In this document: piece by piece, positions 15,295-32,779 of the stretch | Layout of the letters: each line of letters begins with the position of its first letter | Numbering within the stretch: position 1 is the first letter of the stretch | NCBI GenBank assembly: GCA_001829185.1 | Contig: MIAR01000032.1 | Location: 1 to 64,000 of the forward strand | Direction of reading: 5' to 3' | DNA from: Spirochaetes bacterium GWB1_60_80 | Lineage (GTDB): Bacteria > Spirochaetota > Spirochaetia > Treponematales > UBA12059 | DNA length: 64,000 bases | The notes under the pieces: generated by a model | The model's database searches: none | Told to the model about the DNA's origin: nothing | What the model saw: the letters and a program-made list of their open reading frames with translations, nothing else | Made by a program: the position numbers and the translations under genes

Positions 15295-16635
15295 ATGGCA
15301 ATCAAATCTTTCCGGGGTGGAGCCCACCCACCGGAACACAAAGAACTCAGCGAGCATACCGCAATCAAGATTGTGCAAGGCGTCAAACAGGTCGTCATCC
15401 CGATTAACCAGCATTTCGGCGCGCCCATCCAGCCGCTGGTTCAGGTTGGCGACAAGGTCAAGCGCGGCCAGAAAATCGCCGATGGCGATGGCCGCATGAC
15501 CGTCCCACTGCATGCTTCCATTACCGGCACCGTTAAAAAGATCGAGCCGCGCATGCAAGCCAATAACCTTGAAGGCCCGTGCATCATCCTTGAAGCGACC
15601 GAGACCGACGAAACCGATTTTCTACCCATCCTTGACCCCTTCACGTGCACTGTAAAGGAAGCTCTAGCGCGGGTACGTGAGGCCGGTATCATTGGCATCG
15701 GTGGCGCCGGCTTTCCAACACACGTTAAACTGGCTCCACCGCCGGATAAACCCATCGAATTCGTCATCGCAAATGCCGCGGAGTGCGAGCCCTATCTAAC
15801 CATCGACCAACGCGTCATGGAAGAAAGCCCAGGCAGCTTTATCGACGGTATGGCCATCGCCATGCGCATCGTCGGCGCAAAAAAAGGCCTTATCGGGCTG
15901 GAAGCCAACAAAAAGCATCTGGTTCCAATCCTGGAACAAGCCATCGACCAGAAAAACCACGGCTATGATATAAAGATCCAACTCCTGGCCACCAAATACC
16001 CGCAGGGTGGCGAAAAAATGCTGATCACCGCCACCATCGGCCGGGAAGTGCCTTCCGGCGGCTTGCCGATGGACGTCGGCTGCGTCGTCAGCAACGTCGG
16101 CACCTTGCGGGCTATGTCCGACGCTTTCCGCGAAGGCAAGCCGCTCATCGACACCGGCCTAACCCTCACCGGCGGCGCTTGTAAAACGCCGCAGAACCTG
16201 GTCGTGCCGGTGGGCATGCTGGCCCAGGACCTGTTCCCGGAAATCGCCAGCTACGACGAAACCAAACTGCGCCGTATTGTCATGGGCGGCCCGATGATGG
16301 GTCCGGCTGTACCGTCGCTCAATATCCCGCTCCAGAAAAACACCTCTGGCCTGCTCCTGATGGATGCCCACGAGGCGAAAGTATTTACCGAGCAGTCCTG
16401 CATCCGTTGCGGCCGTTGCATGGGCGCCTGCGCTTGCCGCCTGTCACCCGCCCTGCTGGCCAAGGCCCTGCGCGAGGACGATCTGACGGAAGCCGAAGCT
16501 ATCGGCGTACTCGACTGCATCGAGTGCGGCAGCTGCAGCTATGTCTGCCCGGCCCACATCCAGCTCGTGCAGCGCTTCCGCGTCGGCAAGCAGCTGGTAC
16601 GCGCCAAGAAACAGAAGGAGGCCAAGCGTGCCTGA
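15295..16635 (+). CDS. rnfC: Rnf electron-transport complex subunit C
   Basis: The 446-residue peripheral cytoplasmic subunit that docks NAD(H) in the Rnf ferredoxin:NAD+ oxidoreductase. It starts with the family signature FRGGAHPPEHKE, has a Gly-rich nucleotide/FMN-binding segment (GIGGAGFPTHVK) and two [4Fe-4S] motifs near the C-terminus (CIRCGRCMGAC and CIECGSCSYVCP). AAAGGAGTGG lies upstream of the ATG. The length matches the short clostridial-type RnfC rather than the long proteobacterial form with its Ala-rich tail. It opens a tight six-gene operon in the order CDGEAB. Confidence 0.96.
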   Translation: MAIKSFRGGAHPPEHKELSEHTAIKIVQGVKQVVIPINQHFGAPIQPLVQVGDKVKRGQKIADGDGRMTVPLHASITGTVKKIEPRMQANNLEGPCIILEATETDETDFLPILDPFTCTVKEALARVREAGIIGIGGAGFPTHVKLAPPPDKPIEFVIANAAECEPYLTIDQRVMEESPGSFIDGMAIAMRIVGAKKGLIGLEANKKHLVPILEQAIDQKNHGYDIKIQLLATKYPQGGEKMLITATIGREVPSGGLPMDVGCVVSNVGTLRAMSDAFREGKPLIDTGLTLTGGACKTPQNLVVPVGMLAQDLFPEIASYDETKLRRIVMGGPMMGPAVPSLNIPLQKNTSGLLLMDAHEAKVFTEQSCIRCGRCMGACACRLSPALLAKALREDDLTEAEAIGVLDCIECGSCSYVCPAHIQLVQRFRVGKQLVRAKKQKEAKRA

Positions 16636-17641
16636 CAACAAACTTCTCCTGTCCTCGACGCCACACGCCTACAGCGCCGGCTCGACGCGCAAGATCATGC
16701 TGGCTGTCATCATCGCCTTGTTGCCGGCCACTGGGTACGGCGTCTATCTGTTTGGTCTGCCCGCCCTGCTCGTAATTTTGACGTCGGTGGTAGCGGCCGT
16801 AGTAGCTGAGGCAGGCTTCCGCCTGGTAACCAAGCAGGATATCCGTATCGGCGACCTCTCGGCCGTGGTCACTGGCCTGCTGCTGGCCTTGATCTGTCCG
16901 CCGTCCATCCCTCTCTGGATGGTAGCCCTCGGTTCAGCCGCTGCCATCATCTTTGCCAAAGAATTCCTAGGCGGACTCGGCGCCAACCCCTTTAACCCGG
17001 CCTTGATTGGCCGCGGCATCCTGCTGATGAGCTTCCCAGCGGCCATGACCACCTGGCACCTACCGGTCCAGACCATCGGCGACGTAGTCACCGGTGCCAC
17101 TCCACTCAACATCGTCAAGATGGGCGGCAGCCTGGCCGACGTCGCCAATGACTTGGCCGCCAATGGTCTGGCCGCCGGTAACAGCTATAGCGACATGCTG
17201 TGGACCCTGTTCCTCGGCAACCGCGCCGGCTGCATTGGTGAAAGTTCCATCCTGCTCATCCTGGTCGGCCTGGCCTTCCTACTGCTGACCCGCGTGGTTA
17301 ATGTCATCGTACCCCTGGCCATGATGGGCTCCACCTTCCTGTTCTCTTGGTTGTTTGGCCTGGACCCGGTCTTCGGCATCTTGTCCGGCGGCGTGGTCTT
17401 TGGCGCGGTCTTCATGGCCACCGATTATTCGTCCAGCCCGCTGCCGCCATTCGGTAAACTTATTTTCGGCACTGGCGCCGGCTTCCTGACGGCCATCATA
17501 CGAAAGTTCGGCGGCTTCCCCGAGGGCGTCACCTATAGTATCCTGATCATGAACGCCATCGCGCCTTATCTCGACAAATTGCGCGTCAAAAAGTACGGCT
17601 TCATCAAACCGGCCAAGCCAGTCAAGGAGGCCGCCAAATGA
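16628..17641 (+). CDS. rnfD: Rnf complex subunit D
   Basis: An integral membrane subunit of 337 residues with about eight to ten helices that carries a covalent FMN. I start at GTG 16628, behind AAGGAGG, overlapping rnfC by 8 bp; the frame is open further upstream but only inside rnfC. The flavinylation motif is TGATPLN (TGAT in place of SGAT, common in RnfD), with Thr as the attachment site. The family segments LICPPSIPLWM and FNPALIGR are clear. It should form the ion path with RnfG, E and A. Confidence 0.95.
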   Translation: MPDNKLLLSSTPHAYSAGSTRKIMLAVIIALLPATGYGVYLFGLPALLVILTSVVAAVVAEAGFRLVTKQDIRIGDLSAVVTGLLLALICPPSIPLWMVALGSAAAIIFAKEFLGGLGANPFNPALIGRGILLMSFPAAMTTWHLPVQTIGDVVTGATPLNIVKMGGSLADVANDLAANGLAAGNSYSDMLWTLFLGNRAGCIGESSILLILVGLAFLLLTRVVNVIVPLAMMGSTFLFSWLFGLDPVFGILSGGVVFGAVFMATDYSSSPLPPFGKLIFGTGAGFLTAIIRKFGGFPEGVTYSILIMNAIAPYLDKLRVKKYGFIKPAKPVKEAAK

Positions 17642-18267
17642 AGAACAATATCCTCAAGCTCGGCATCGTCCTGGCCCTCTACGCCAGCCTGGCCTGTACC
17701 GCCCTGGCCGTGGTAGAGCAATTTACCGGGCCAATCATCGAAGGGCACCAGTCCCGCCAACTGCAAGAATCACAGCAAGACCTCTTCCCCGAGGCCGATG
17801 CCTTCACCGAAATTCCGCTCGAGTCGTTTTCCACCGACGTCCAAAAGGTTAACTTCACCGGTGCTTGGCAAGCGCGCAGTGGCAACCGCCTGCTTGGCGT
17901 CATCCTCAAGGTAGCCGGATCCAGCTACGGTGGCAAGGAAGCCATCGTCCTGGTCGGCATCGGTTCCAACCTCAAAATCGCCGGTACCCGCATCCTGACC
18001 TTGTCCGACACTCCCGGCCTGGGCGCAAATGCCGTGAAGGCCAACTACTACGTGAACAAACCGGAACAGATCACTTTCCCCGGCCAATTCACCGGCATGG
18101 CCGTGTCGAGTTCCTTCGACCTGACCACCCTGGCCAGCGATAACGAGAACACCGTCATTGCCATCACGGCCAGTACCATTACCAGCCGGGCGATCACTAC
18201 TATGGTCAAGGCCGCCGCCCAAGCCGGCACCACCTGGCTGGGTTCCAACTCCACTGGAGGCAACTAA
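17638..18267 (+). CDS. rnfG: Rnf complex subunit G (variant flavinylation motif)
   Basis: A 209-residue subunit with one N-terminal membrane helix and an extracytoplasmic FMN-binding domain. TPGLGANA is the family GLG segment. The covalent-FMN motif is normally S/T-GAT-x-T/S; here it reads TASTITS, so the acceptor Thr is kept but Gly and Ala are changed to Ala and Ser. The start ATG overlaps the rnfD stop (ATGA), indicating coupling. Whether the ApbE flavin transferase still recognises this site is uncertain. No apbE is seen in the window. Confidence 0.92.
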   Translation: MKNNILKLGIVLALYASLACTALAVVEQFTGPIIEGHQSRQLQESQQDLFPEADAFTEIPLESFSTDVQKVNFTGAWQARSGNRLLGVILKVAGSSYGGKEAIVLVGIGSNLKIAGTRILTLSDTPGLGANAVKANYYVNKPEQITFPGQFTGMAVSSSFDLTTLASDNENTVIAITASTITSRAITTMVKAAAQAGTTWLGSNSTGGN

Positions 18268-18899
18268 TGAAAAACCTGCTGAAAATTTTCAGCCGCGGCT
18301 TGATCATCGAGAATCCATTGCTGATGCTGATGATCGGCCTCTGCTCCGCGGTGGCCGTGACGACCAGCGTCGAGAACGCCATCGGTATGGGCGCCGCCAT
18401 GACCTTCGTCATTGTCCTGGCCGAGCTGGTCATCTCGCTGTTCCGCAAGCTTATCCCGAGCGACGCGCGCATCCCGATCTTCATCATCGTTATCGCGGCT
18501 TTTACCACCATGATCGATTTGGCCATGAAGGCCTACTTCCCGGCTTTGTCCCGCTCATTGGGCGTTTTCATCCCGCTCATCGTGGTCAACTGCATCATCA
18601 TGGGTCGCGTTGAAGCCTATGCCAGCAAGCAGCCACCGATCAATGCCGTCTTTGACGCGCTGGGTATGGGCGTCGGCTACACCTGGGTGCTGGTCGGCAT
18701 CGCCACCTTCCGTGAGCTGCTGGGCAATGGCACACTGCTCGACTTCCAGATCATGCCGGAAAGCTTCCAGCCCATCCTGTTCTTCACCCTCTCGCCCGGC
18801 GGCTTCATGGTATTCGCGCTGTTCATCGCCTTGAACCTCTGGCTCAAGAAGATCACCGGCCGCAAGGCTGGCAACACCATCGTGTCGGAGACCCTATGA
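18267..18899 (+). CDS. rnfE: Rnf complex subunit E
   Basis: A 210-residue, six-helix membrane subunit of the NqrD/RnfE family. Together with RnfA it forms the inverted-repeat pair that binds a [2Fe-2S] cluster in the membrane core. The hallmark VVNCIIMGRVEAYA and the Cys in GLCSAVAVT are present. GGAGG precedes the ATG; it overlaps the rnfG stop by one base. Confidence 0.95.
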   Translation: MKNLLKIFSRGLIIENPLLMLMIGLCSAVAVTTSVENAIGMGAAMTFVIVLAELVISLFRKLIPSDARIPIFIIVIAAFTTMIDLAMKAYFPALSRSLGVFIPLIVVNCIIMGRVEAYASKQPPINAVFDALGMGVGYTWVLVGIATFRELLGNGTLLDFQIMPESFQPILFFTLSPGGFMVFALFIALNLWLKKITGRKAGNTIVSETL

Positions 18900-19477
18900 A
18901 CCTCTTTTCCATCTTTCTGAGCGCCGCGCTAATCGACAATATCGTCCTGATGCAATTCCTAGCGCTTTGCCCCTTCATCGGCATGTCCAGCGATGCCGGC
19001 AAAAGCATCGGCATGGGCATGGCTGTCATGTTCGTCACGGTAATGGCCACCATCGTCACCTACCCGATCTTTCACTTCATCCTGGTACCGATGGAGCTCG
19101 AGTTCCTGCAGATCCTGGTTTTCATCCTGGTCATCGCCGCCTTAGTGCAGCTGGTCGAATTTTTTCTCAAAAAGAACGTTCCCGGCCTGTATGCTTCGAT
19201 GGGTATCTTCCTGCCCCTGATCACCACCAACTGCGCCATCCTAGCGGTTACCTTCAACAATATCTCCAAGGGATTCAACCTGATCGAGTCGGTGGTCTAT
19301 GCCGTCGGCGTGGCCTCGGGCTTCCTATTGGCGCTGCTGTTGCTGGCCGGACTGCGCAGCCGGATGAAAGCGGCACCCATCCCGGCCTTCCTGAAGGGCA
19401 CGCCAGCCTTGTTCGTCACCACCAGCTTGCTGGCCGTAGCCTTCATGGGCTTTTCCGGCCTGAGCTTCATCAAGTAA
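18896..19477 (+). CDS. rnfA: Rnf complex subunit A
   Basis: A 193-residue, six-helix subunit of the NqrE/RnfA family, topologically inverted relative to RnfE. It contains FLALCPFIG and LITTNCAIL, the two Cys segments that ligate the intramembrane Fe-S cluster. ATGA overlap with rnfE. Length is exactly that of the family. Confidence 0.95.
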   Translation: MNLFSIFLSAALIDNIVLMQFLALCPFIGMSSDAGKSIGMGMAVMFVTVMATIVTYPIFHFILVPMELEFLQILVFILVIAALVQLVEFFLKKNVPGLYASMGIFLPLITTNCAILAVTFNNISKGFNLIESVVYAVGVASGFLLALLLLAGLRSRMKAAPIPAFLKGTPALFVTTSLLAVAFMGFSGLSFIK

Positions 19478-19486
19478 GGAGCCTCT

Positions 19487-20362
19487 ATGATAATCCTGAT
19501 TACCTTTGGTTTCTCGGCGCTCCTAGCTTTGCTGCTTGGATTGGCGCTGGGATTCTTCAAGGAAAAGTTTAACGTTGAAAAGGACCCGCTAATGGCGGCC
19601 TGCGAGACAACCTTGCCCGGCATCAACTGCGGGGCCTGCGGTTATCCCGGCTGCGGCGGTTACGCCACCGCTCTTGCTTCCGGCGAAGCGCCAGTAACCA
19701 AATGTGCTCCCGGCGGCAAGGCAACGGCTGAGGCTCTCGCCAATCTGCTGGGTGTTTCGGCCAGCGCGGTCGATATAGTCGCCGTCTTGGCATGCCAGGG
19801 TCACAAGGACGCTGCCCAAGTAAAAGGCGACTATGTGGGCGTCAAGACCTGTCGCGCCGCCAAGCTCTCTGCCGGCGGTACAAAATTGTGCGCCTGGGGT
19901 TGCATGGGCTATGGCGATTGTGTAGCCGTGTGCCAGTTCGATGCCATAAAAATACAGGCCGACGGCCTGCCGCACGTTGATTATGCTAAATGCACGGGCT
20001 GCCGCTTCTGTATTCTGGAATGCCCCAGTCAGCTACTGCAGGCCATCCCGCGCGACCAGGTCGGCTCGATGGTCATTTGCAGCAACCGCTCGGTAGTCAA
20101 AGCCAATGTCATGAAACAGTGTAAGGTCGGCTGCATCAAATGCGGCATCTGCGTCAAATCCTGCCCGGAAGAATGCATTACCATGGTCAATGGTATCCCG
20201 GTTACCGATTTCGAAAAATGCACTTCCTGCGGCATTTGCGTGGAAAAGTGTCCGACCAAATGTTACAAACTGCTCCAAGGCATCACTGGCGCAACCGGAG
20301 AGTTAAGTCCTCGGCCACTGCTTAAGGAAGAGCCGGCCATCAAGATAGGCTGTTGCAATTAA
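19487..20362 (+). CDS. rnfB: Rnf complex subunit B (ferredoxin-binding polyferredoxin)
   Basis: The 291-residue electron-entry subunit. One N-terminal helix (about residues 1-24) is followed by the RnfB-specific cluster domain (CGACGYPGCGGYA...CAPGG) and then a Cys-rich polyferredoxin part with motifs CMGYGDC...C, CTGCRFCILEC, CIKCGICVKSC and CTSCGICVEKC. That is enough Cys for several [4Fe-4S] clusters, more than the minimal proteobacterial RnfB. AAGGAG stands upstream. It closes the operon, followed by a strong terminator. Confidence 0.95.
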   Translation: MIILITFGFSALLALLLGLALGFFKEKFNVEKDPLMAACETTLPGINCGACGYPGCGGYATALASGEAPVTKCAPGGKATAEALANLLGVSASAVDIVAVLACQGHKDAAQVKGDYVGVKTCRAAKLSAGGTKLCAWGCMGYGDCVAVCQFDAIKIQADGLPHVDYAKCTGCRFCILECPSQLLQAIPRDQVGSMVICSNRSVVKANVMKQCKVGCIKCGICVKSCPEECITMVNGIPVTDFEKCTSCGICVEKCPTKCYKLLQGITGATGELSPRPLLKEEPAIKIGCCN

Positions 20363-23899: not shown

Positions 23900-25345
23900 C
23901 TACTTGCTAGCTGGCCTGGTCGCTTGTTCGGAATATCCAGCACTCCAGCTTTTTACAGCATAATAAGTTATCGGCTCACTTTTCCCTTTAATAACCTGGT
24001 TCTCAATGGCCTTGGCCACCACCTTAGCCTGTACCTCAGCATAGAAACTGGCCGAAATCAGGATGGCGTTAGGCGGGGCCAGGCCACACAAGCGGCTGGC
24101 CAGATTGACCGTATCGCCGATAACGGCGTATTCTTGGCGGTTCTGGCTGCCGATGTTGCCGGCTACCACTTCGCCATAGTTGATGCCAATGCCGATGGCC
24201 ATCGGGTAATCCCAATTGCGACTCAACCGGTGAGTCTGGCGGACCATGTCGAAGGCGGCCTGCAGTGCCGACTCCGGTTCCTGGAACAAGGCCATAACGG
24301 CATCACCCATGAACTTGTCGATATCGCCATGATGTTGCTCGACAATACGCGCCTGGACATCAAGCACTTGGTTGAGCCGTTCAATGACCAGGCTGGCGTC
24401 TGCCTGGTCAGCGAAACGGGTAAAGCCGCGCACATCCGAAAACAGGACCGCCAGCCGGTTCTTCTGCCCGGCCTGACCGGTAGTCTGTTGCCGGATCATG
24501 GCATCGGTAGACCGCGATACATACTTGCTAAGCTGCAGCCGTTCCTGCACGCTGGTAAACATTTCGTTAATGCGGTTACCCAGCATCCCCAGCTCATCCT
24601 TGCTCCCGATCTGTACCTTGGCATCCAGCTGACCGGCGCCAAAATTGCTAACCATCCGGCCGATGTACAGCAATGGATTGAGTACCAAACGACGGATGGT
24701 CCAAATCAAGGCCAATGAGAACAAGACGACTGCAGCCGTCAGAAACGAAACCAACAACACGCTGGCCTTAGCGATCTGACGATAAATGCCGGCGATGGAT
24801 ACCTTGAAGTGGGCGATGCCGCGGATCGGGCCGGAAACCGCGACCGGACCATGGCAAAACTGGCAACTCTGTTCATTGCGGAGGGGAAAGAAATATTCCA
24901 TCTCCCGTTGCTCCGTCAACTCGCGGATAACGGGTCGGCCGGTGACGATGACCGACTGAAAGGCCGGATTATCCTGCATGCCCACGTCAACCCGCGGCGT
25001 CTGTTCGAAAATGACCCGCTCCTGGAAACTGTTCACGAATTCCAAGGTACGATAATCCTGGAAAGCACGACTGCTATCCGCGCGGTATAAATTGATTGCC
25101 TTGAACTCGCCGATCTGTTGCAGGCTTTGCATGGTGCCAACCGCCAACGGCGCCTCACCGCCCAACATCAAGTTCTTGATGACCATGTTGAGGATGTCGG
25201 TATTAACGCTTAGCGTACTCTTGGCCGCCTCCAGCAAGTCATTCTTCTGGCGCAACACCGTCAGGGGTATGACGGTTCCCATGACCACCAACATCAGCAG
25301 CACTATTACGACTATCACCTTAAATTGGAGGGAAAGGCCTTTCAT
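23900..25345 (-). CDS. Adenylate cyclase with an extracytoplasmic haem-c sensor domain
   Basis: A 481-residue membrane receptor cyclase. A helix at residues 8-28 is followed by an extracytoplasmic sensor of about 160 residues carrying CQFCH (Cys161, Cys164, His165), a c-type haem attachment motif, within a domain similar to Tll0287-like/haem-PAS sensors of Geobacter chemoreceptors. A second helix (about 195-217) and a HAMP domain lead to a class III catalytic domain: FSDVRGFT, DKFMGDAV and IGDTVNLASRL supply both metal Asps, the adenine-selecting Lys, and the catalytic Asn and Arg. It should make cAMP under control of a haem ligand or redox state. Its ATG overlaps the stop of the P460-like gene. 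Confidence 0.9.
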   Translation of the reverse strand: MKGLSLQFKVIVVIVLLMLVVMGTVIPLTVLRQKNDLLEAAKSTLSVNTDILNMVIKNLMLGGEAPLAVGTMQSLQQIGEFKAINLYRADSSRAFQDYRTLEFVNSFQERVIFEQTPRVDVGMQDNPAFQSVIVTGRPVIRELTEQREMEYFFPLRNEQSCQFCHGPVAVSGPIRGIAHFKVSIAGIYRQIAKASVLLVSFLTAAVVLFSLALIWTIRRLVLNPLLYIGRMVSNFGAGQLDAKVQIGSKDELGMLGNRINEMFTSVQERLQLSKYVSRSTDAMIRQQTTGQAGQKNRLAVLFSDVRGFTRFADQADASLVIERLNQVLDVQARIVEQHHGDIDKFMGDAVMALFQEPESALQAAFDMVRQTHRLSRNWDYPMAIGIGINYGEVVAGNIGSQNRQEYAVIGDTVNLASRLCGLAPPNAILISASFYAEVQAKVVAKAIENQVIKGKSEPITYYAVKSWSAGYSEQATRPASK

Positions 25346-25908
25346 TGATCGGCTCCTGCGGCGTCAAGCCTTTGTAAAAGCACAAAATCGGAGGCCGAAG
25401 AGCTATGGCACCTAATGCACATGGCTGGCCGACCTTCCATCTTGACTCCACCTTGATTGTCGTACGCTGCCCAAAACCAGTCACCGGCATCAGGGTTGTA
25501 TCCAGGCACTTTAGCCATCACCGTGTACCCAGAAACAACGCGGTCCGGGTCGTAGTTTTCCTTAATAATGATCGAGCCAGCCGGTGCGATATTGGCGCTA
25601 ATAGGCAGGGCATCGGCCAGTATAGGATTGATATAGATGCGGTGAAAACGACCATGAGGCGATTGCCCCGGCTGAATGCCCTTATAATCCGGCCAGGACG
25701 GGTAGGCCTTAAAATCTTCTTCTACGGTGATGCGCTGCCAAAGGCTAGCCCCGCTGATCTGGTCGCCCGTCAAGCCTGGCAAGGCCGCCACTGCCCTCGG
25801 GGTGCAGCTGACGATACTGCACAGACCGCATAAAACGACTCCCCAAAACCGATTGGCCAGTTTCAGTCTGCGACGTACAATAGCTTTCATGGCTTCACTA
25901 TGAACCAT
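25342..25908 (-). CDS. Cytochrome P460-like haem lipoprotein/secreted protein
   Basis: A 188-residue exported protein. The hydrophobic N-terminus ends in IVSC, a plausible lipobox. The mature part has the cytochrome P460 layout: WPDYKGIQPGQSPHGRFHRIYIN, then IIIKENYD, VMAKVPGYNP, DWFWAAYD, and a C-terminal CIRCH (Cys164, Cys167, His168). P460 proteins oxidise hydroxylamine or bind NO; many relatives of unknown role exist. ATG at 25908 follows GGGGGT; a second ATG at 25890 is possible. Four-base overlap with the cyclase suggests that it presents a ligand, haem or electrons to that sensor. Confidence 0.82.
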   Translation of the reverse strand: MVHSEAMKAIVRRRLKLANRFWGVVLCGLCSIVSCTPRAVAALPGLTGDQISGASLWQRITVEEDFKAYPSWPDYKGIQPGQSPHGRFHRIYINPILADALPISANIAPAGSIIIKENYDPDRVVSGYTVMAKVPGYNPDAGDWFWAAYDNQGGVKMEGRPAMCIRCHSSSASDFVLLQRLDAAGADQ

Positions 25909-25995
25909 GTCGACCCCCTTGTCAAACTTTTCCAGCAAGAAGAAATAATAGCGACGCAACTGGACAAGGACAAGGACCAGCATTATGATGCCGCC

Positions 25996-27237: not shown

Positions 27238-27735
27238 AAACGCCTAGAAGCGCCACCCCAACTGACCCACACTATGACCGGCCGCACCTGGCGCTTCCGC
27301 ATCGAGGCCGTCTCCCCCAACACCCGGTGGGACGACACCGCCATCCGCCATGACCGGCACAGCGCCCGCCAGTGTCCGGCAAACCCGCAAGACCGCCATC
27401 CCGGCTAACCACCCGCATCCCCATCCCCCCGCCACCACAACCCACCCCTCTCTACGAACCACGGCGCAAAACCGTCAAACCCCGCAACTGGCTTAACCAC
27501 GGAGACCGCACCCGCGCGGGTGGCACGACCAAACATGGCCAAGCGATAAGCTGGCCATGTTTGATAGTGCCAGGCCCCGCGTCTATAATCTCCATGATCA
27601 AGCCCGCGCCGTTGTCAAAGTTTTACCCCGCTTTTCGCACCACCCTTGCCCTTTTCCCGTTTCGACGCAATAATGGCCCCACCGAATGCCAATTCCCGGA
27701 GACACTGCCCGTCTTCCATAAGTAAGGATACCATC
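27238..27735. other. 498-bp non-coding gap rich in inverted repeats
   Basis: No supported gene. Inverted arms gaagcgcca (27247-27255) and tggcgcttc (27289-27297) and a perfect 11-bp hairpin at 27531-27562 (aaacatggcca/tggccatgttt, 10-nt loop) are present; neither is followed by a T-tract. The middle is C-rich. It probably carries the promoter and leader of the DUF4956 operon. Confidence 0.5.
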
Positions 27736-28413
27736 GTGAACTGGTTACAAACCACCATCCTCGTCTCTCCCGACCAACTGCTGCGTTTCGCGCTGGCCCT
27801 TTGTCTGGCGCTCGCCTTGGGCCTGGGCGTGGCGCTGGTCTACCGCTATACCCACCGCGGCCTCAACTACGAGAGTAGTTTTGTATCGACCCTGGCCTTG
27901 CTGGCACCTATCGTCTGCCTAGTTATGTTTTTCATCCAGGGTGACCTGGTGCTATCACTTGGCCTAGTCGGCTCACTGTCCATTATCCGCTTCCGCACGC
28001 CCATCAAAGACACCCGCGACATGGTCTACCTGTTCTGGTCCATTGTAGTCGGGTTGGGTTGCGGTACGATGTTCTGGCTCTACTCCATCCTGGCCAGCCT
28101 GTTCATCGCCGTGGCGCTGGTCATCTTCAATTTGGTCAAATATGGCCGCCAGGTCCACGCCGAGTACATCTTGATCATCGCCGGAGGCTTACCGGCCGAT
28201 TACGCCAGCATCGAGCAACTTATCAACCAGGCCGACGCCTTGGTTCAGCTGCGCAGCCACGAAATGGAAGGCCAAACCTGGGAACGCACTTACGAATTCC
28301 GTTTTAGCCGCCAACAGGAACAGGCCATTCATCACCTGGCTACCGTTTTGCAACAATTGCCGGGCATCCACAAGGTTTCGCTGTTGACGCCTCAGCTGAC
28401 CTTACCGATGTAA
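27736..28413 (+). CDS. DUF4956-family membrane protein
   Basis: A 225-residue protein with three to five helices in the first 150 residues (ALCLALALGLGVALVY, LALLAPIVCLVMFFI, IVVGLGCGTMFWLYSILASLFIAVALVIF) and a soluble alpha/beta C-terminal domain. The family signature SLGLVGSLSIIRFRTPIKDTRD is unmistakable. DUF4956 proteins are nearly always encoded beside VTC-domain polyphosphate polymerases and CotH, as here. GTG at 27736 was chosen (TAAGGA upstream). Its biochemical role is not known; it may couple the VTC enzyme to the membrane. Confidence 0.88.
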   Translation: MNWLQTTILVSPDQLLRFALALCLALALGLGVALVYRYTHRGLNYESSFVSTLALLAPIVCLVMFFIQGDLVLSLGLVGSLSIIRFRTPIKDTRDMVYLFWSIVVGLGCGTMFWLYSILASLFIAVALVIFNLVKYGRQVHAEYILIIAGGLPADYASIEQLINQADALVQLRSHEMEGQTWERTYEFRFSRQQEQAIHHLATVLQQLPGIHKVSLLTPQLTLPM

Positions 28414-28419
28414 ACCAGG

Positions 28420-29145
28420 ATGACTAGGCTGACCACGCGTTTCGAGCGCAAATATCTGCTGGATCAAGCCCAATACCATCAGGTGCGTAACGAATTGCGA
28501 TTGCAGATGACCAGCGATGGCTACACCCGCCAGGGCGGCGGCAACTACCTGGTGCGCAGCCTTTATTACGATACGCGCGACTACTCGGCCTTCCACGAAC
28601 GCAACGACGGCAACTTTGGCCGCATCAAGTTGCGCGTCCGTTCTTACAGTGAACAAGCGGAACCAGATCAACCTATCTCAGTGGAAATCAAGACCAAGAA
28701 AGGCAATGCCATGGAAAAGTTTGCCTGCTTGGTCGGCCTGAACGACTACCACAATTTCCAGACCTGCCGGCGCTGGGCTTGCCCCGACAACGAGGTGACC
28801 AACGAGTTCGAGCGCCTCTATCGGGTGCGCATGATGGTTCCGGTACTGTTGATACAATACCGGCGTGAAGGTTACCGCACCCGCGACGGCTCGCCGCTGC
28901 GCGTAACGCTGGACCAGAACATCAGCAGCGCCCGGGCGTCGCGCCTGTTCCCGGAAAACTTACTGCTCAAGCCGCATCGCCCTAAAAATGTCGTCCTGGA
29001 GATCAAGAGCACGGCCGCCTGCGAGCCGGAGTGGCTGCAACACCTGGTCCGCCGGCACGGCCTCAAAATGACGGCCAACAGCAAGTACGTCCAGGGCATC
29101 GAGATCATCCGGCCCAATATGGTGACACCCGGACCGGTGGCATGA
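28420..29145 (+). CDS. VTC-domain polyphosphate polymerase-like protein
   Basis: A 241-residue soluble protein with the VTC (CYTH/TTM-related tunnel) fold. Conserved charged strand motifs are RFERKYLLD, VRSLYYDT, GRIKLRVRSY, SVEIKTKKG and VVLEIKST, which line the tunnel that binds polyphosphate and metal. The yeast homologue makes polyphosphate from ATP. It lies 6 bp behind DUF4956 and 10 bp before the CotH gene. It has no membrane helix, so the DUF4956 partner probably tethers it. Confidence 0.87.
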   Translation: MTRLTTRFERKYLLDQAQYHQVRNELRLQMTSDGYTRQGGGNYLVRSLYYDTRDYSAFHERNDGNFGRIKLRVRSYSEQAEPDQPISVEIKTKKGNAMEKFACLVGLNDYHNFQTCRRWACPDNEVTNEFERLYRVRMMVPVLLIQYRREGYRTRDGSPLRVTLDQNISSARASRLFPENLLLKPHRPKNVVLEIKSTAACEPEWLQHLVRRHGLKMTANSKYVQGIEIIRPNMVTPGPVA

Positions 29146-29155
29146 GGTATTTGAA

Positions 29156-32100
29156 ATGAAGTACATGAAGCGCTTGCGCTGGCTAGGCATCGGCGCCGGC
29201 CTGCTCCTGGCCAGCCTATTGGCCTGCTATATCGTCCTCAGCGCCAACACCGCCACCATCAGCTTCGCGGACCCCGGCCTACAGGCCGCCGTGCTGGCGG
29301 CCACCGGCGGCGAGACTGGCCAAGTCCTGCGGCACAAGCTGGGACAGATAACCTGGCTGGACGCCAGCTACCACGATATCCGCGACTTGAACGGCATCGA
29401 GCGCCTGGCCAACCTGCGCGGTATCGACCTTTCAGGCAATCCGCTGCAATCACTCGCTGTCTTGGCCAACCTGGGCGGCCTTGAGGAACTGACGCTGCAA
29501 GACTGCGGCCTAACCGACCTGGCCGCGCTCGGCGCCGGCCAACTGGCCAGACTGCGCCGCCTGTTCCGTCTGGACCTGGCCAATAACCCGGACCTGGCCG
29601 GCCTGGCCGCCCTGACCAGTCTGCCGCAGCTGCGGTCGCTCAGCCTACGGGGCTCAAGCATCGACCAGCTCGACGCGGTCGGCCAGCTGGTCCACCTGAC
29701 GACCCTCGATTTGCGCGACTGCGACCTAGCCACGCTTGATCTGGAACCGCTTGGTCATTTAAGCGCCCTCGAGGAACTTGACCTGCGCGATACCGGCCTA
29801 GCTGACCTTACCTTCCTGACCAGGCTATCAAACCTGCGCACCGTCAACCTGCGCGGCAATCGCGCCATCACCGATTTCCAGCCCTTGGCCAGCCTAAGTG
29901 GGCTGCGCCGCCTGGACGCCAGCCACACCTTTATCGGCGCTCAGTTGGCGACCTTGGCCGGACTGCGCCACCTGGAGGATATCGACCTGCGCGCCACCGG
30001 GACCGTTGATCTGACAGTCCTGGCCAGTCTGATGTCACGTGGCGCTTTACAGGACAATCCGGCTGCCGGTCGCCGCGCCAGTTTGGACATCCGCGACAAT
30101 CCCGTCAACCTTGACCCACGCTTGGGACCAATTGGTTACGACGTCCTGGCGCCATACTGGAATGCCATTGGCAATCGCCAGCCGAAGCACCTGCCCCGCG
30201 TACCCAACAAGGAAATCATCATCAGCGAGGCGATGAGCGCCAACGATGGCGGCCTGACCGACGCCGACGGAAAGCATGCCGACTGGATCGAACTCTTTAA
30301 CCCCGGCCCAACGACTGTCCGGTTGGACGGTTTTTTTTTATCTGACGACCCGACCCAGCCCCTGCGCTGGCAGTTCCCGCCCGAAACCGAGCTGGCCGCA
30401 GACAGCCGCTTGATCGTCTTCGCTTCCGGCAAGCAACCCGGCCCAGCCGGCCAGCTCCACGCCGCCTTCCAGCTGGACGCTGCCGGCGAAAGCCTGGTAC
30501 TAACCCACCGTAATCGGCACAGCCTGGTAGACCGACTGGACCTGCCAGCCTTACCTCGCAACGTCAGCTATGGCGTCAAACCCGACGGACAGGCCACTAG
30601 TTTCCTGACCACCAGTTTCCTGGTGCCCACTCCCGGCGCCGACAACGCGACCGCTATCGAGTACGCCAATGTGGCCTTCTCACACCGCTCCGGTTTCTAC
30701 GATGCGGCCTTCGACCTAGAACTGGTCGCCAGTCAACCGGGCTGCGAAATTTACTATACTCTGGACGGTTCTGTACCCGATCCAGCCAACCTAGGCGGCC
30801 GCGATGCCTACCGCCTGCGTGACGCGGACAGCCTGGCCTTCAGCTGGCGACAGGTGCGTAGCTACCACTACAACGGTCCGATACACATTACACCCCGCCA
30901 CTTGGATACGCGCGACATTGCTGGAATTCCCACCGCCGTACCACTCGCTACCGAAGAAAACCTGGGCTGGGAGCCGCCGCAACCGGATATCCCGGCCGGC
31001 ATGGTGGTTCGCGCACTAGCCTGGGCCGGTCAAGCGCGCGGCCTGGTGAATAGTGCCTCGTATTTTATCATCACTGACCACTCGGAGAATTTCACATTGC
31101 CGGTTGTTTCAATTGTTACCGATCCTAGTGCCCTTTTCGATTACGATGTTGGACTCTATGTACCCGGGAAATCTTACTACGATAACCTGGATTGGGAAGA
31201 GATATGGCGCACGCAACCGGCTAATTACCATCTTAGGGACTTGGAAATTCCTGTCTGGCTCGATTTTTTTGAAGCCGACGGCCACCAGGTGCTGGGTTTG
31301 AATGCCGGCCTGCGCATGCATGGCGATTGGTCGCGAGCCCTGGTCATGAAATCATTACGTCTCTACGCACGCGACACCTACGACAGCCAGGATCGTTTCA
31401 ACTATGCGTTTTTCCCCAGTTCCCTGGCGGCAGACAACCTGTCACCGATCAATGACTACAAACGCTTACTGTTGCGTTCCAATCAAAGCGGCCAGCGGAC
31501 CTTTCTAGCCGATAGTTTCAGCAATACTTGGGTTGCCGATCATGTAGCTGTGGATCTGCTACACAATCGACCGGCTGCCCATTTCATCAATGGTGAGTAC
31601 TGGGGGTTACAGCATCTTAACGAGCGCTTCGATGAACACTGGCTGGCCAGTAAGTACGGGCTGCCACCAGAAGAATTCAGCTATTTATACGCCACCTTCG
31701 GCCTCGTCGCCCATCTGCGCCAGGGGCAACCCGAAGCGGAGGAACGCTACGCCGAATTGATGGCTTTCGTCAGAAACCAAGACCTGACTGATGCCGCTTC
31801 TTTCGACTACCTCGAAAAACAAATAGATTTGGACAGTTTAATCGACTACAACATGGTGCGAATTTTTTCCGGTGACATGGACGGCGTCAACAAGCATGTC
31901 ATCGTCTGGCGGCGTAATGGTCCCTTGCGCCCGGAGGCGGGGCCAGGTCTTGACGGCCGCTGGCGCTGGCACACCTGGGACTTCGATAATGCCCTGATTT
32001 TCCCTTTCAACGACACTATGACTTATTTTGCCAATGATCGTACTCTCGACGCTTATTCTGAACGGCCAATTACGTATGAACTGGATGCGGAATACCACTA

Positions 32101-32707
32101 TACCGCACCCTGGGTGCGCGACTCGGATTCTACGATCCTGCTGGCCGGTTTACTTCGCAACGAAGCCTTTCGGATTCGCTTTGTCAATCGTTTTGCCGAC
32201 TTTATGAATAGTTGGTATCGTGAGGATATTTTAACAGAAGGACTGGAAAACGCCATGGCGCAGATCCGGTTTGAACTGGGCAGGCATACCCGCCGCTGGG
32301 GCATACCCGTGTCATTAGATAGCAAATTCAACAGAAATCTGGATTTCGCCCGGCTACGTAGTGGTGTTCAGCGCGAACACCTGCGCGCCTACTTTGGCTA
32401 TCGCGGCCTGGACATTGGATCGATAGCACCCTTGGAGCTTGCTTTGCCGCTCGAAGGCGGCCTGGTGCGCGTGAACAGTTTATTGCTCAATGAAGCAGTC
32501 CTCGGCGTCTCGCCTGGAACCGTCTGGCGTGGATTATACTTCGGTAACCTGCCGGTGGAACTAGAAGCCATCCCAGCCCACGGCTGGTACTTCGCAGGCT
32601 GGGAAGGATTACCATCAGGACAGGATGCCAGCCAGGCCCTGCTTTCGGTTCTGCCCGCTGATTCGCCGAAACTTGAACCGGTCTTCGTGAGATTAGCTGG
32701 CCATTGA
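29156..32707 (+). CDS. Large surface CotH protein with LRR, lamin-tail and chitobiase-C-like domains
   Basis: A 1183-residue exported protein. A signal/anchor helix (about residues 10-30) leads to leucine-rich repeats (roughly 65-300, LRxxxLRxN type). A lamin-tail domain follows at about 350-470 (SEAMSAN...DWIELFNPG), then a chitobiase C-terminal-like beta domain (IYYTLDGSVPD), then a CotH kinase-like domain at about 640-1060 (VSIVTDPSALFD, LRMHGDWSR, NGEYWGLQHLNERFDE, WDFDNAL). It ends in an all-beta module (HGWYFAGWEG). CotH of Bacillus is a protein kinase of spore-coat proteins. The domain mix here suggests a cell-surface or secreted modifying protein working with the DUF4956/VTC pair. Confidence 0.88.
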   Translation: MKYMKRLRWLGIGAGLLLASLLACYIVLSANTATISFADPGLQAAVLAATGGETGQVLRHKLGQITWLDASYHDIRDLNGIERLANLRGIDLSGNPLQSLAVLANLGGLEELTLQDCGLTDLAALGAGQLARLRRLFRLDLANNPDLAGLAALTSLPQLRSLSLRGSSIDQLDAVGQLVHLTTLDLRDCDLATLDLEPLGHLSALEELDLRDTGLADLTFLTRLSNLRTVNLRGNRAITDFQPLASLSGLRRLDASHTFIGAQLATLAGLRHLEDIDLRATGTVDLTVLASLMSRGALQDNPAAGRRASLDIRDNPVNLDPRLGPIGYDVLAPYWNAIGNRQPKHLPRVPNKEIIISEAMSANDGGLTDADGKHADWIELFNPGPTTVRLDGFFLSDDPTQPLRWQFPPETELAADSRLIVFASGKQPGPAGQLHAAFQLDAAGESLVLTHRNRHSLVDRLDLPALPRNVSYGVKPDGQATSFLTTSFLVPTPGADNATAIEYANVAFSHRSGFYDAAFDLELVASQPGCEIYYTLDGSVPDPANLGGRDAYRLRDADSLAFSWRQVRSYHYNGPIHITPRHLDTRDIAGIPTAVPLATEENLGWEPPQPDIPAGMVVRALAWAGQARGLVNSASYFIITDHSENFTLPVVSIVTDPSALFDYDVGLYVPGKSYYDNLDWEEIWRTQPANYHLRDLEIPVWLDFFEADGHQVLGLNAGLRMHGDWSRALVMKSLRLYARDTYDSQDRFNYAFFPSSLAADNLSPINDYKRLLLRSNQSGQRTFLADSFSNTWVADHVAVDLLHNRPAAHFINGEYWGLQHLNERFDEHWLASKYGLPPEEFSYLYATFGLVAHLRQGQPEAEERYAELMAFVRNQDLTDAASFDYLEKQIDLDSLIDYNMVRIFSGDMDGVNKHVIVWRRNGPLRPEAGPGLDGRWRWHTWDFDNALIFPFNDTMTYFANDRTLDAYSERPITYELDAEYHYTAPWVRDSDSTILLAGLLRNEAFRIRFVNRFADFMNSWYREDILTEGLENAMAQIRFELGRHTRRWGIPVSLDSKFNRNLDFARLRSGVQREHLRAYFGYRGLDIGSIAPLELALPLEGGLVRVNSLLLNEAVLGVSPGTVWRGLYFGNLPVELEAIPAHGWYFAGWEGLPSGQDASQALLSVLPADSPKLEPVFVRLAGH

Positions 32708-32779
32708 ACTTGCCAGACTACCAGCCGGCTGGCAACTGCCCGGCTGGACAGCCGTTACGGCTGACGCTATCATGACACT

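Follow-up and report, generated by a model that had tools for sequence, protein, structure and literature searches.

The three-gene locus and its predicted products

We analyzed a stretch of 64,000 nucleotides (the window; contig MIAR01000032.1, positions 1 to 64,000) from Spirochaetes bacterium GWB1_60_80, in which three genes lie closely one after another on the + strand in the order DUF4956-VTC-CotH. They encode a membrane protein, a VTC-domain protein and an exported protein of 1183 residues in which a CotH domain is fused to leucine-rich repeats (LRRs), a lamin tail domain (LTD) and a chitobiase-C-like domain. A preliminary description, made from the sequence alone, had reported the tight spacing and this fusion, and both were confirmed: the coordinates are as it gave them, the genes are separated by 6 and 10 nt, and all Pfam domains named for the trio exceed their curated cut-offs. 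Its interpretation was partly supported, as detailed below. The features of the three genes are as follows.

27736..28413, +, gene of the DUF4956 membrane protein (PF16316, E 5e-15)
27985..28023, +, conserved basic loop of DUF4956, residues 84-96, IRFRTPIKDTRDM (residue conservation, positive-inside count)
28420..29145, +, gene of the VTC-domain protein (PF09359, E 2e-36)
29156..32707, +, gene of the exported 1183-residue LRR, lamin-tail, chitobiase-C and CotH protein (Pfam domains, hydrophobic N-terminal segment)
29156..29242, +, signal peptide or signal anchor (translation, hydropathy 2.4)
29264..30034, +, leucine-rich repeats, about residues 37-293 (LRR_4, E 2.9e-22; LRR_8; LRR_EndoS)
30206..30538, +, lamin tail domain, residues 351-461 (PF00932, LTD, E 1.3e-10)
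30689..30892, +, chitobiase/hexosaminidase C-terminal or Fn3-associated domain, residues 512-579 (PF13290 and PF13287; CHB_HEX_C_1, 1.2e-5; Fn3_assoc, 1.3e-5)
31310..32359, +, CotH kinase-fold domain, residues 719-1068 (PF08757, E 2.6e-26; Foldseek)
31880..31882, +, D909, counterpart of the catalytic D228 of Bacillus subtilis CotH (profile alignment to 5jd9, conserved column)
31979..31981, +, D942, counterpart of B. subtilis CotH D251 (profile alignment to 5jd9, conserved column)

The DUF4956 protein was modeled from 70 sequences with a predicted local distance difference test score (pLDDT) of 90.8. The model has five transmembrane helices (12-39, 47-67, 71-87, 93-110 and 114-133), followed by a C-terminal part (about 140-218) with the beta-alpha-beta-beta-alpha-beta order of an ACT/ferredoxin-like domain. 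The loop IRFRTPIKDTRD is predicted by positive-inside count to face the cytosol, and its residues R85 and R87 were retained in 101/101 proteins. Searches of the Protein Data Bank (PDB) with Foldseek and VIA showed that the C-terminal domain resembles ACT-like folds widely, including the C-terminal domains of MgtC proteins: 2lqj ranked second in Foldseek (E 1.1e-4; VIA Z 10.0, root-mean-square deviation (rmsd) 2.5, 84 aligned), and 7qa5 gave a VIA Z of 11.0 (rmsd 3.0, 88 aligned). Because the ACT fold is common, the whole protein was compared with MgtC. Full-length hhalign against MgtC proteins of the same class (6 usable ones from 12 MgtC loci tried) gave 96.5% with an E of 7.5e-10 and 191 columns in register, and the reversed alignment used as a control gave 0.6%. 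When 109 single membrane proteins (6 MgtC and 103 controls from the surveyed loci) were scored against DUF4956, MgtC proteins occupied ranks 1, 2, 3, 4, 5 and 7. The membrane half alone matched MgtC weakly, at 84.9% compared with 15.7 to 77.3% for eight controls with block-shuffled columns, and we therefore base the relation on the full-length match and the ranking rather than on this half.

The Pfam MgtC model PF02308 did not match the window's DUF4956 protein, for which DUF4956 was the sole family found at E up to 0.01. Judged by these profiles, DUF4956 is a distant relative of MgtC and not a member of that family: it shares with MgtC/SapB the layout of five helices and an ACT-like domain and the full-length profile match, whereas it escapes PF02308 and has an RFR[ST] motif of its own. 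We met no DUF4956-MgtC link in the literature retrieved for DUF4956, a part of which was checked for MgtC, and the modeled five-helix and ACT-like structure and the MgtC relation appear to be new here.

The second protein carries the VTC domain and no other (PF09359, 126 bits against a cut-off of 23). A PDB sequence search with this single protein returned nothing useful, whereas a profile of nine family members recovered the yeast Vtc4 structures at an E of 4e-19. This profile places the protein among the triphosphate tunnel enzymes, as a relative of Vtc4. Residues R72, R74, E89, K91, K100, R149, R161, D165, E194, K196 and K222 were invariant in 86-87 sequences, and R7, E9 and K11 in 84-85. 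The residues aligned with R72, R74 and E194 are R264, R266 and E426 of Vtc4, which were mutated together in the yeast enzyme (PMC9911596; cited, as are all articles here, from excerpts). The yeast VTC complex combines the Vtc4 polymerase with a membrane channel built from Vtc1, Vtc3 and Vtc4 helices (PMC9911596). The window's pair thus has in common with it a homologous tunnel enzyme, the same active-site residues and a membrane-protein partner; it differs in that its VTC protein consists of the VTC domain alone, by Pfam, and any kinship of DUF4956 to the Vtc membrane domain would be hypothetical.

In the third protein, the CotH domain scored 93.3 bits (cut-off 23.8). Its model (pLDDT 77.8) had as best Foldseek match 5jda, the Bacillus cereus CotH (E 3.5e-12, TM 0.74 by target). 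The preliminary description had let its kinase reading depend on the catalytic aspartates, and these are present: in the alignment, D909 and D942 fall on two B. cereus CotH aspartates (5jd9) that are 23 residues apart, as are D228 and D251 in B. subtilis, and both were invariant in 45 aligned CotH domains. The B. subtilis variants D228Q and D251A were inactive (PMC7821199). Positions D780 (D in 64/84) and 785 (R or K in 73/85) were common across CotH proteins. Compared with the Bacillus spore-coat kinase (5jd9/5jda; PMC7821199), the window protein thus has the same fold and both key aspartates, but it is predicted to be exported, is multidomain and is changed at D780 and R/K785. Residues 21-24 (LLAC) form a possible lipobox. 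Structures of the internalin-A LRRs are similar to the LRR part (E 6e-28); NCBIfam names for LRR effectors and internalins were rejected for the protein as a whole, since their scores lay far below the cut-offs and reflected LRR similarity only.

Linkage of the three families

Linkage was assessed in two surveys. The first covered 149 Chloroflexota genomes, in which Pfam families over cut-off were counted and genes within 6 kb were taken as linked. VTC was found in 9 genomes, DUF4956 in 21 and CotH in 22, with shared occurrence of VTC and DUF4956 in 8, of VTC and CotH in 8 and of DUF4956 and CotH in 18. With kinship ignored, Fisher's p was 3e-7, 5e-7 and 1e-16, respectively, and the odds ratios were 72 to 186. 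VTC genes had DUF4956 nearby in 8/9 cases and CotH in 7/9, DUF4956 genes had VTC nearby in 8/23 and CotH in 15/23, and CotH genes had DUF4956 nearby in 21/49 and VTC in 8/49. The preliminary description had asked whether the genes are commonly unlinked; the VTC-DUF4956 linkage proved very strong, whereas CotH genes mostly do not lie beside VTC. Of 14 named control genomes, the same three had VTC and DUF4956, and CotH occurred in three, two of them shared. Corynebacterium glutamicum was a control genome with all three families.

The second survey scanned GTDB contigs with an alignment of five DUF4956 proteins, an earlier alignment of 16 members having been too diverse for a genome scan; 80 of 571 confirmed loci were kept. 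All five query proteins came from VTC loci, and the scan is biased towards the VTC-linked subtype. VTC lay within two genes of DUF4956 in 78/80 loci; 76 pairs were direct neighbors on one strand, with a median gap of 17 nt. CotH lay within three genes in 59/80 loci (60/80 when one locus, L093, is counted by Pfam). The recurrence of the set described earlier was thereby upheld. No natural gene fusion between any two of the families was seen among the open reading frames examined. Nor was a hidden divergent VTC found in ten scanned proteins, nine of them from VTC-less loci and representing part of the genes there; these were CheR, CheD, methyl-accepting chemotaxis (MCP), TPR, LRR, WG-repeat or purine-synthesis proteins or had no family.

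Predicted topology was consistent over the window and the 80 loci. VTC proteins had no hydrophobic segment in 78/80 cases, DUF4956 proteins had 3-5 in 83/83, and 59/62 CotH proteins had a hydrophobic N-terminus, from which CotH is predicted to be exported and VTC to be cytosolic. The membrane-bound DUF4956/VTC enzyme of the preliminary description therefore holds for DUF4956, while VTC itself is predicted to be soluble.

Residues in and near the conserved loop distinguish two forms of DUF4956. K91 was present in 85/88 VTC-linked proteins but in 2/13 without a VTC gene nearby, and 11/13 of the latter had F at positions 78 and 101; the VTC-linked subtype is marked by K91, V78 and W101. The remaining 2/13, which we take to be L038 and L104, the sole members from the VTC-type scan (L numbers denote surveyed loci), look like the VTC-linked subtype in sequence. 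Loci L020-L031, from the phylum of the window, hold a second subfamily with F78, F101 and T, R or V at 91 and without VTC; CotH is near in most of them, and chemotaxis genes (CheR, CheD, MCP) are near some. In the 80 scanned loci, VTC and DUF4956 are nearly inseparable and CotH is a looser partner. Since some loci pair DUF4956 with CotH but lack VTC, and others pair it with VTC but lack CotH, neither outer partner is obligatory, and the two pairings share DUF4956 as their hub.

The three-gene set itself is already published. Contiguous genes for cotH, a poly-phosphate polymerase, DUF4956 and DUF4832 were described beside Gram-positive pel clusters, where CotH was suggested to regulate through protein phosphorylation (PMC7112168). 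This accessory set has the same three families in contiguous genes, and the window differs from it in gene order and in the fusion of CotH to LRR, lamin-tail and chitobiase-C parts. The NELoc-2 locus of Clostridium perfringens lists VTC and CotH genes, with each of two VTC genes followed by a membrane protein of 222-226 residues (CP4_0461 and CP4_0464) annotated as tubulin/FtsZ (PMC2879425); by size and place these look like DUF4956 proteins. NELoc-2 thus resembles the window in combining VTC, a small membrane protein and a CotH gene, but its membrane genes bear the tubulin/FtsZ label and no CotH fusion is listed in the excerpted text. The LRR-CotH fusion is likewise not described in the excerpted accounts of the set in PMC7112168 and PMC2879425. 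Among 60 CotH proteins at the surveyed loci, 3 had LRRs, 14 an LTD and 15 a chitobiase-C domain. The LRR-CotH fusion is thus rare (3/60) and belongs to a small clade that extends over three phyla, which is a new detail.

Genomic context

Trees of DUF4956 and VTC were calculated with part of the loci, using 54 and 52 rows, respectively. One DUF4956 group (100/99) unites the window with L013 (same class), L032 (Spirochaetales), L033-L035 (Bacillota) and L036 (Chloroflexi). For six of these seven members the VTC proteins likewise form a group (99/98), which includes the long-branch L018; the truncated L035 VTC was excluded. LRR proteins occur at 5/7 loci, namely, the window, L013, L035, L032 (where the contig ends within the protein) and L034. 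The last has an LRR-LTD protein without CotH, L033 has an LTD-CotH protein without LRR, and the genes scanned at L036 included neither CotH nor LRR. The occurrence of the clade in three phyla suggests that the module was transferred, and bin contamination may also account for this spread. In L036, the VTC-DUF4956 pair is followed by a DUF4230 protein (L036:10738-11409) in a Chloroflexi bin with no CotH nearby.

Other surface proteins and regulators recur near the pair. A protein of one BLAST cluster, with Cthe_2159 as its hub, was present at 13/21 loci without CotH detected by hidden Markov model, and the nine members checked by Pfam all matched PF14262 (9/9). These lie next to or near VTC-DUF4956 at L045, L046, L063, L065, L068, L070, L073, L091 and L107, where no CotH was found, and Cthe_2159 is a possible alternative outer partner. 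Over the 80 loci, the recurrent neighbor clusters had as hubs a GGDEF-EAL response regulator (31 loci), a histidine kinase (21) and a cellulose-synthase-like GT2 enzyme (12), identities that rest on the hubs and a few further members. A PgaC-like synthase was also among the neighbors, and L040 has a histidine kinase and a response regulator near VTC-DUF4956. These neighborhoods, together with the published Pel clusters, point to a matrix or surface polysaccharide.

Within the window, the trio is preceded by the following site.

27561..27589, +, promoter-like site TTGATA-17-TATAAT upstream of the trio (consensus scan, 11/12 matches)

The scan returned 5 sites compared with 3.1 +/- 1.6 expected in shuffles, which makes this site weak evidence for a trio promoter. 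The mechanical open reading frame of the DUF4956 gene opens at TTG 27646; GTG 27736, which has a Shine-Dalgarno-like 'taaggat' just upstream, is the likelier start. An ABC transporter gene (32780) and a GH2 enzyme gene (34565) follow on the same strand. Both were left out of the module because another promoter-like site (32745-32773) separates the trio from the transporter and because the flanking genes of L013, the closest relative of the trio, differ in length from those of the window, lengths being all that was compared. The host genome has a single copy of each of the three families. Elsewhere in the window, a HAMP-adenylate/guanylate cyclase gene adjoins a cytochrome P460 protein gene (23900-25983, minus strand), and a gene run at 15295-20362 resembles an Rnf-type electron transport complex; the three genes scanned there belong to RnfC, RnfD/E-like and ferredoxin families.

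Proposed mechanism and alternatives

The domains, active-site residues, predicted topology and linkage of the trio, all read from the sequence, led us to a tentative reading, which we hold at nearly even credence, of a module in three compartments: a cytosolic VTC polymerase, an MgtC-like DUF4956 protein in the membrane and an exported CotH protein acting on the surface or matrix. VTC, whose polymerase activity and contact with DUF4956 we infer, would work at the cytosolic side of the membrane and use ATP to build polyphosphate or a similar chain of phosphates. DUF4956 would dock VTC through its cytosolic basic loop and ACT-like domain and would gate or regulate it, or pass its product outward. 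The surface-held kinase-fold domain of CotH would be active outside the cell, modifying surface proteins or matrix polysaccharide, and the LRR, lamin-tail and chitobiase-C parts would carry or recognize its targets. A passage of phosphate from VTC on to CotH, likewise inferred, is the weakest part, because DUF4956-CotH pairs occur without VTC and VTC-DUF4956 pairs occur with other surface proteins. A more far-reaching proposal, which we regard as quite improbable, is that bacteria and archaea have in DUF4956 their counterpart to the membrane channel of yeast VTC, with an MgtC-type fold. Polyphosphate made by cytosolic VTC would then be threaded outward via the basic loop, with its invariant RFR and subtype-specific K91, to serve as phosphate donor or anionic cement for an exported CotH or Cthe_2159 matrix protein. 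If true, this would explain how a kinase-fold CotH works where no ATP is expected.

Several observations weigh against the three-compartment module. Among the 149 Chloroflexota genomes, VTC is missing within 6 kb of 15/23 DUF4956 genes although 15/23 lie near CotH, and DUF4956-CotH loci without VTC are common. In the second survey, CotH was not recognized near 20/80 VTC-type DUF4956 genes, a part of which lie on cut contigs. Both counts speak against a supply of polyphosphate to CotH, and the earlier suggestion that VTC/DUF4956 supplies CotH with phosphate or polyphosphate is therefore conjectural. All three LRR-CotH proteins (those of the window, L013 and L035) deviate at D780 and R/K785, with Q and A in the window, and weak or altered kinase activity of these proteins is therefore possible. 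PPK1 is present in the host genome, which thus has a route to polyphosphate besides VTC. The PelF family PF11997 was not found in this genome (96% complete), unlike in the Pel clusters, and Pfam detected no polysaccharide synthase among the scanned genes flanking the trio in the window. Finally, the exit of the VTC tunnel has a mixed motif. In a tripolyphosphatase, four Glu stand where Vtc4p has basic residues at the exit (PMC4641920); of the three positions compared here, R7 and K196 share the basic character of Vtc4, whereas E9 is acidic as in tripolyphosphatases. The enzyme is likely active, either as a polymerase or as a hydrolase.

The same motif bears on the alternative that VTC is a tripolyphosphatase or other tunnel hydrolase and makes no polymer. 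By our reading of the profile alignment, the invariant E9 (85/85) lies at the place of Glu-4 of AtTTM3, an acidic-patch residue absent in Vtc4p (PMC4641920), but R7 (84/84) and K196 (87/87) are basic like their Vtc4 counterparts, and the PDB matches of the family profile, taken up to an E of 1, include Vtc structures and no CYTH hydrolase; we consider such an activity improbable. A somewhat stronger, though still unlikely, alternative concerns DUF4956, which could be an MgtC-like sensor or tuner of the phosphate/ATP state that acts through a partner (histidine kinase, ATP synthase or VTC) and is no conduit, with VTC regulated and CotH a co-regulated surface protein. This would agree with the MgtC relation, with the promotion of phosphate uptake by Salmonella MgtC (PMC6658541), with the ACT-like fold typical of regulatory domains, with the histidine-kinase cluster and L040, and with the occurrence of DUF4956 without VTC; the tight pairing and the VTC-linked subtype nevertheless suggest a specific tie to VTC, and the Pfam scan found no kinase gene adjoining the trio in the window.

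For the third gene, it is conceivable, although we doubt it, that the product is a surface adhesin or scaffold whose CotH is a binding fold rather than an active kinase. The Cthe_2159-type proteins at CotH-less loci, the LRR-LTD protein of L034 and the altered D780 and R/K785 fit this idea, whereas D909 and D942 are kept and are among the most conserved CotH positions. Chance neighborhood of the three genes is very improbable: 41/49 CotH genes do lie apart from VTC, but the odds ratios of the first survey and the VTC neighbors in the second already contradict it.

If VTC-DUF4956 makes and exports polyphosphate, as the three-compartment module would allow, it would constitute a prokaryotic VTC-type route of synthesis and export besides PPK that spans Bacillota, Chloroflexota, Spirochaetota and some archaea. 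The phosphate donor of exported CotH kinases would then become testable; the source of ATP for CotH in the spore coat has been called an unanswered question (PMC7821199). For the DUF4956 family, the relation to MgtC provides a first structural and physiological lead.

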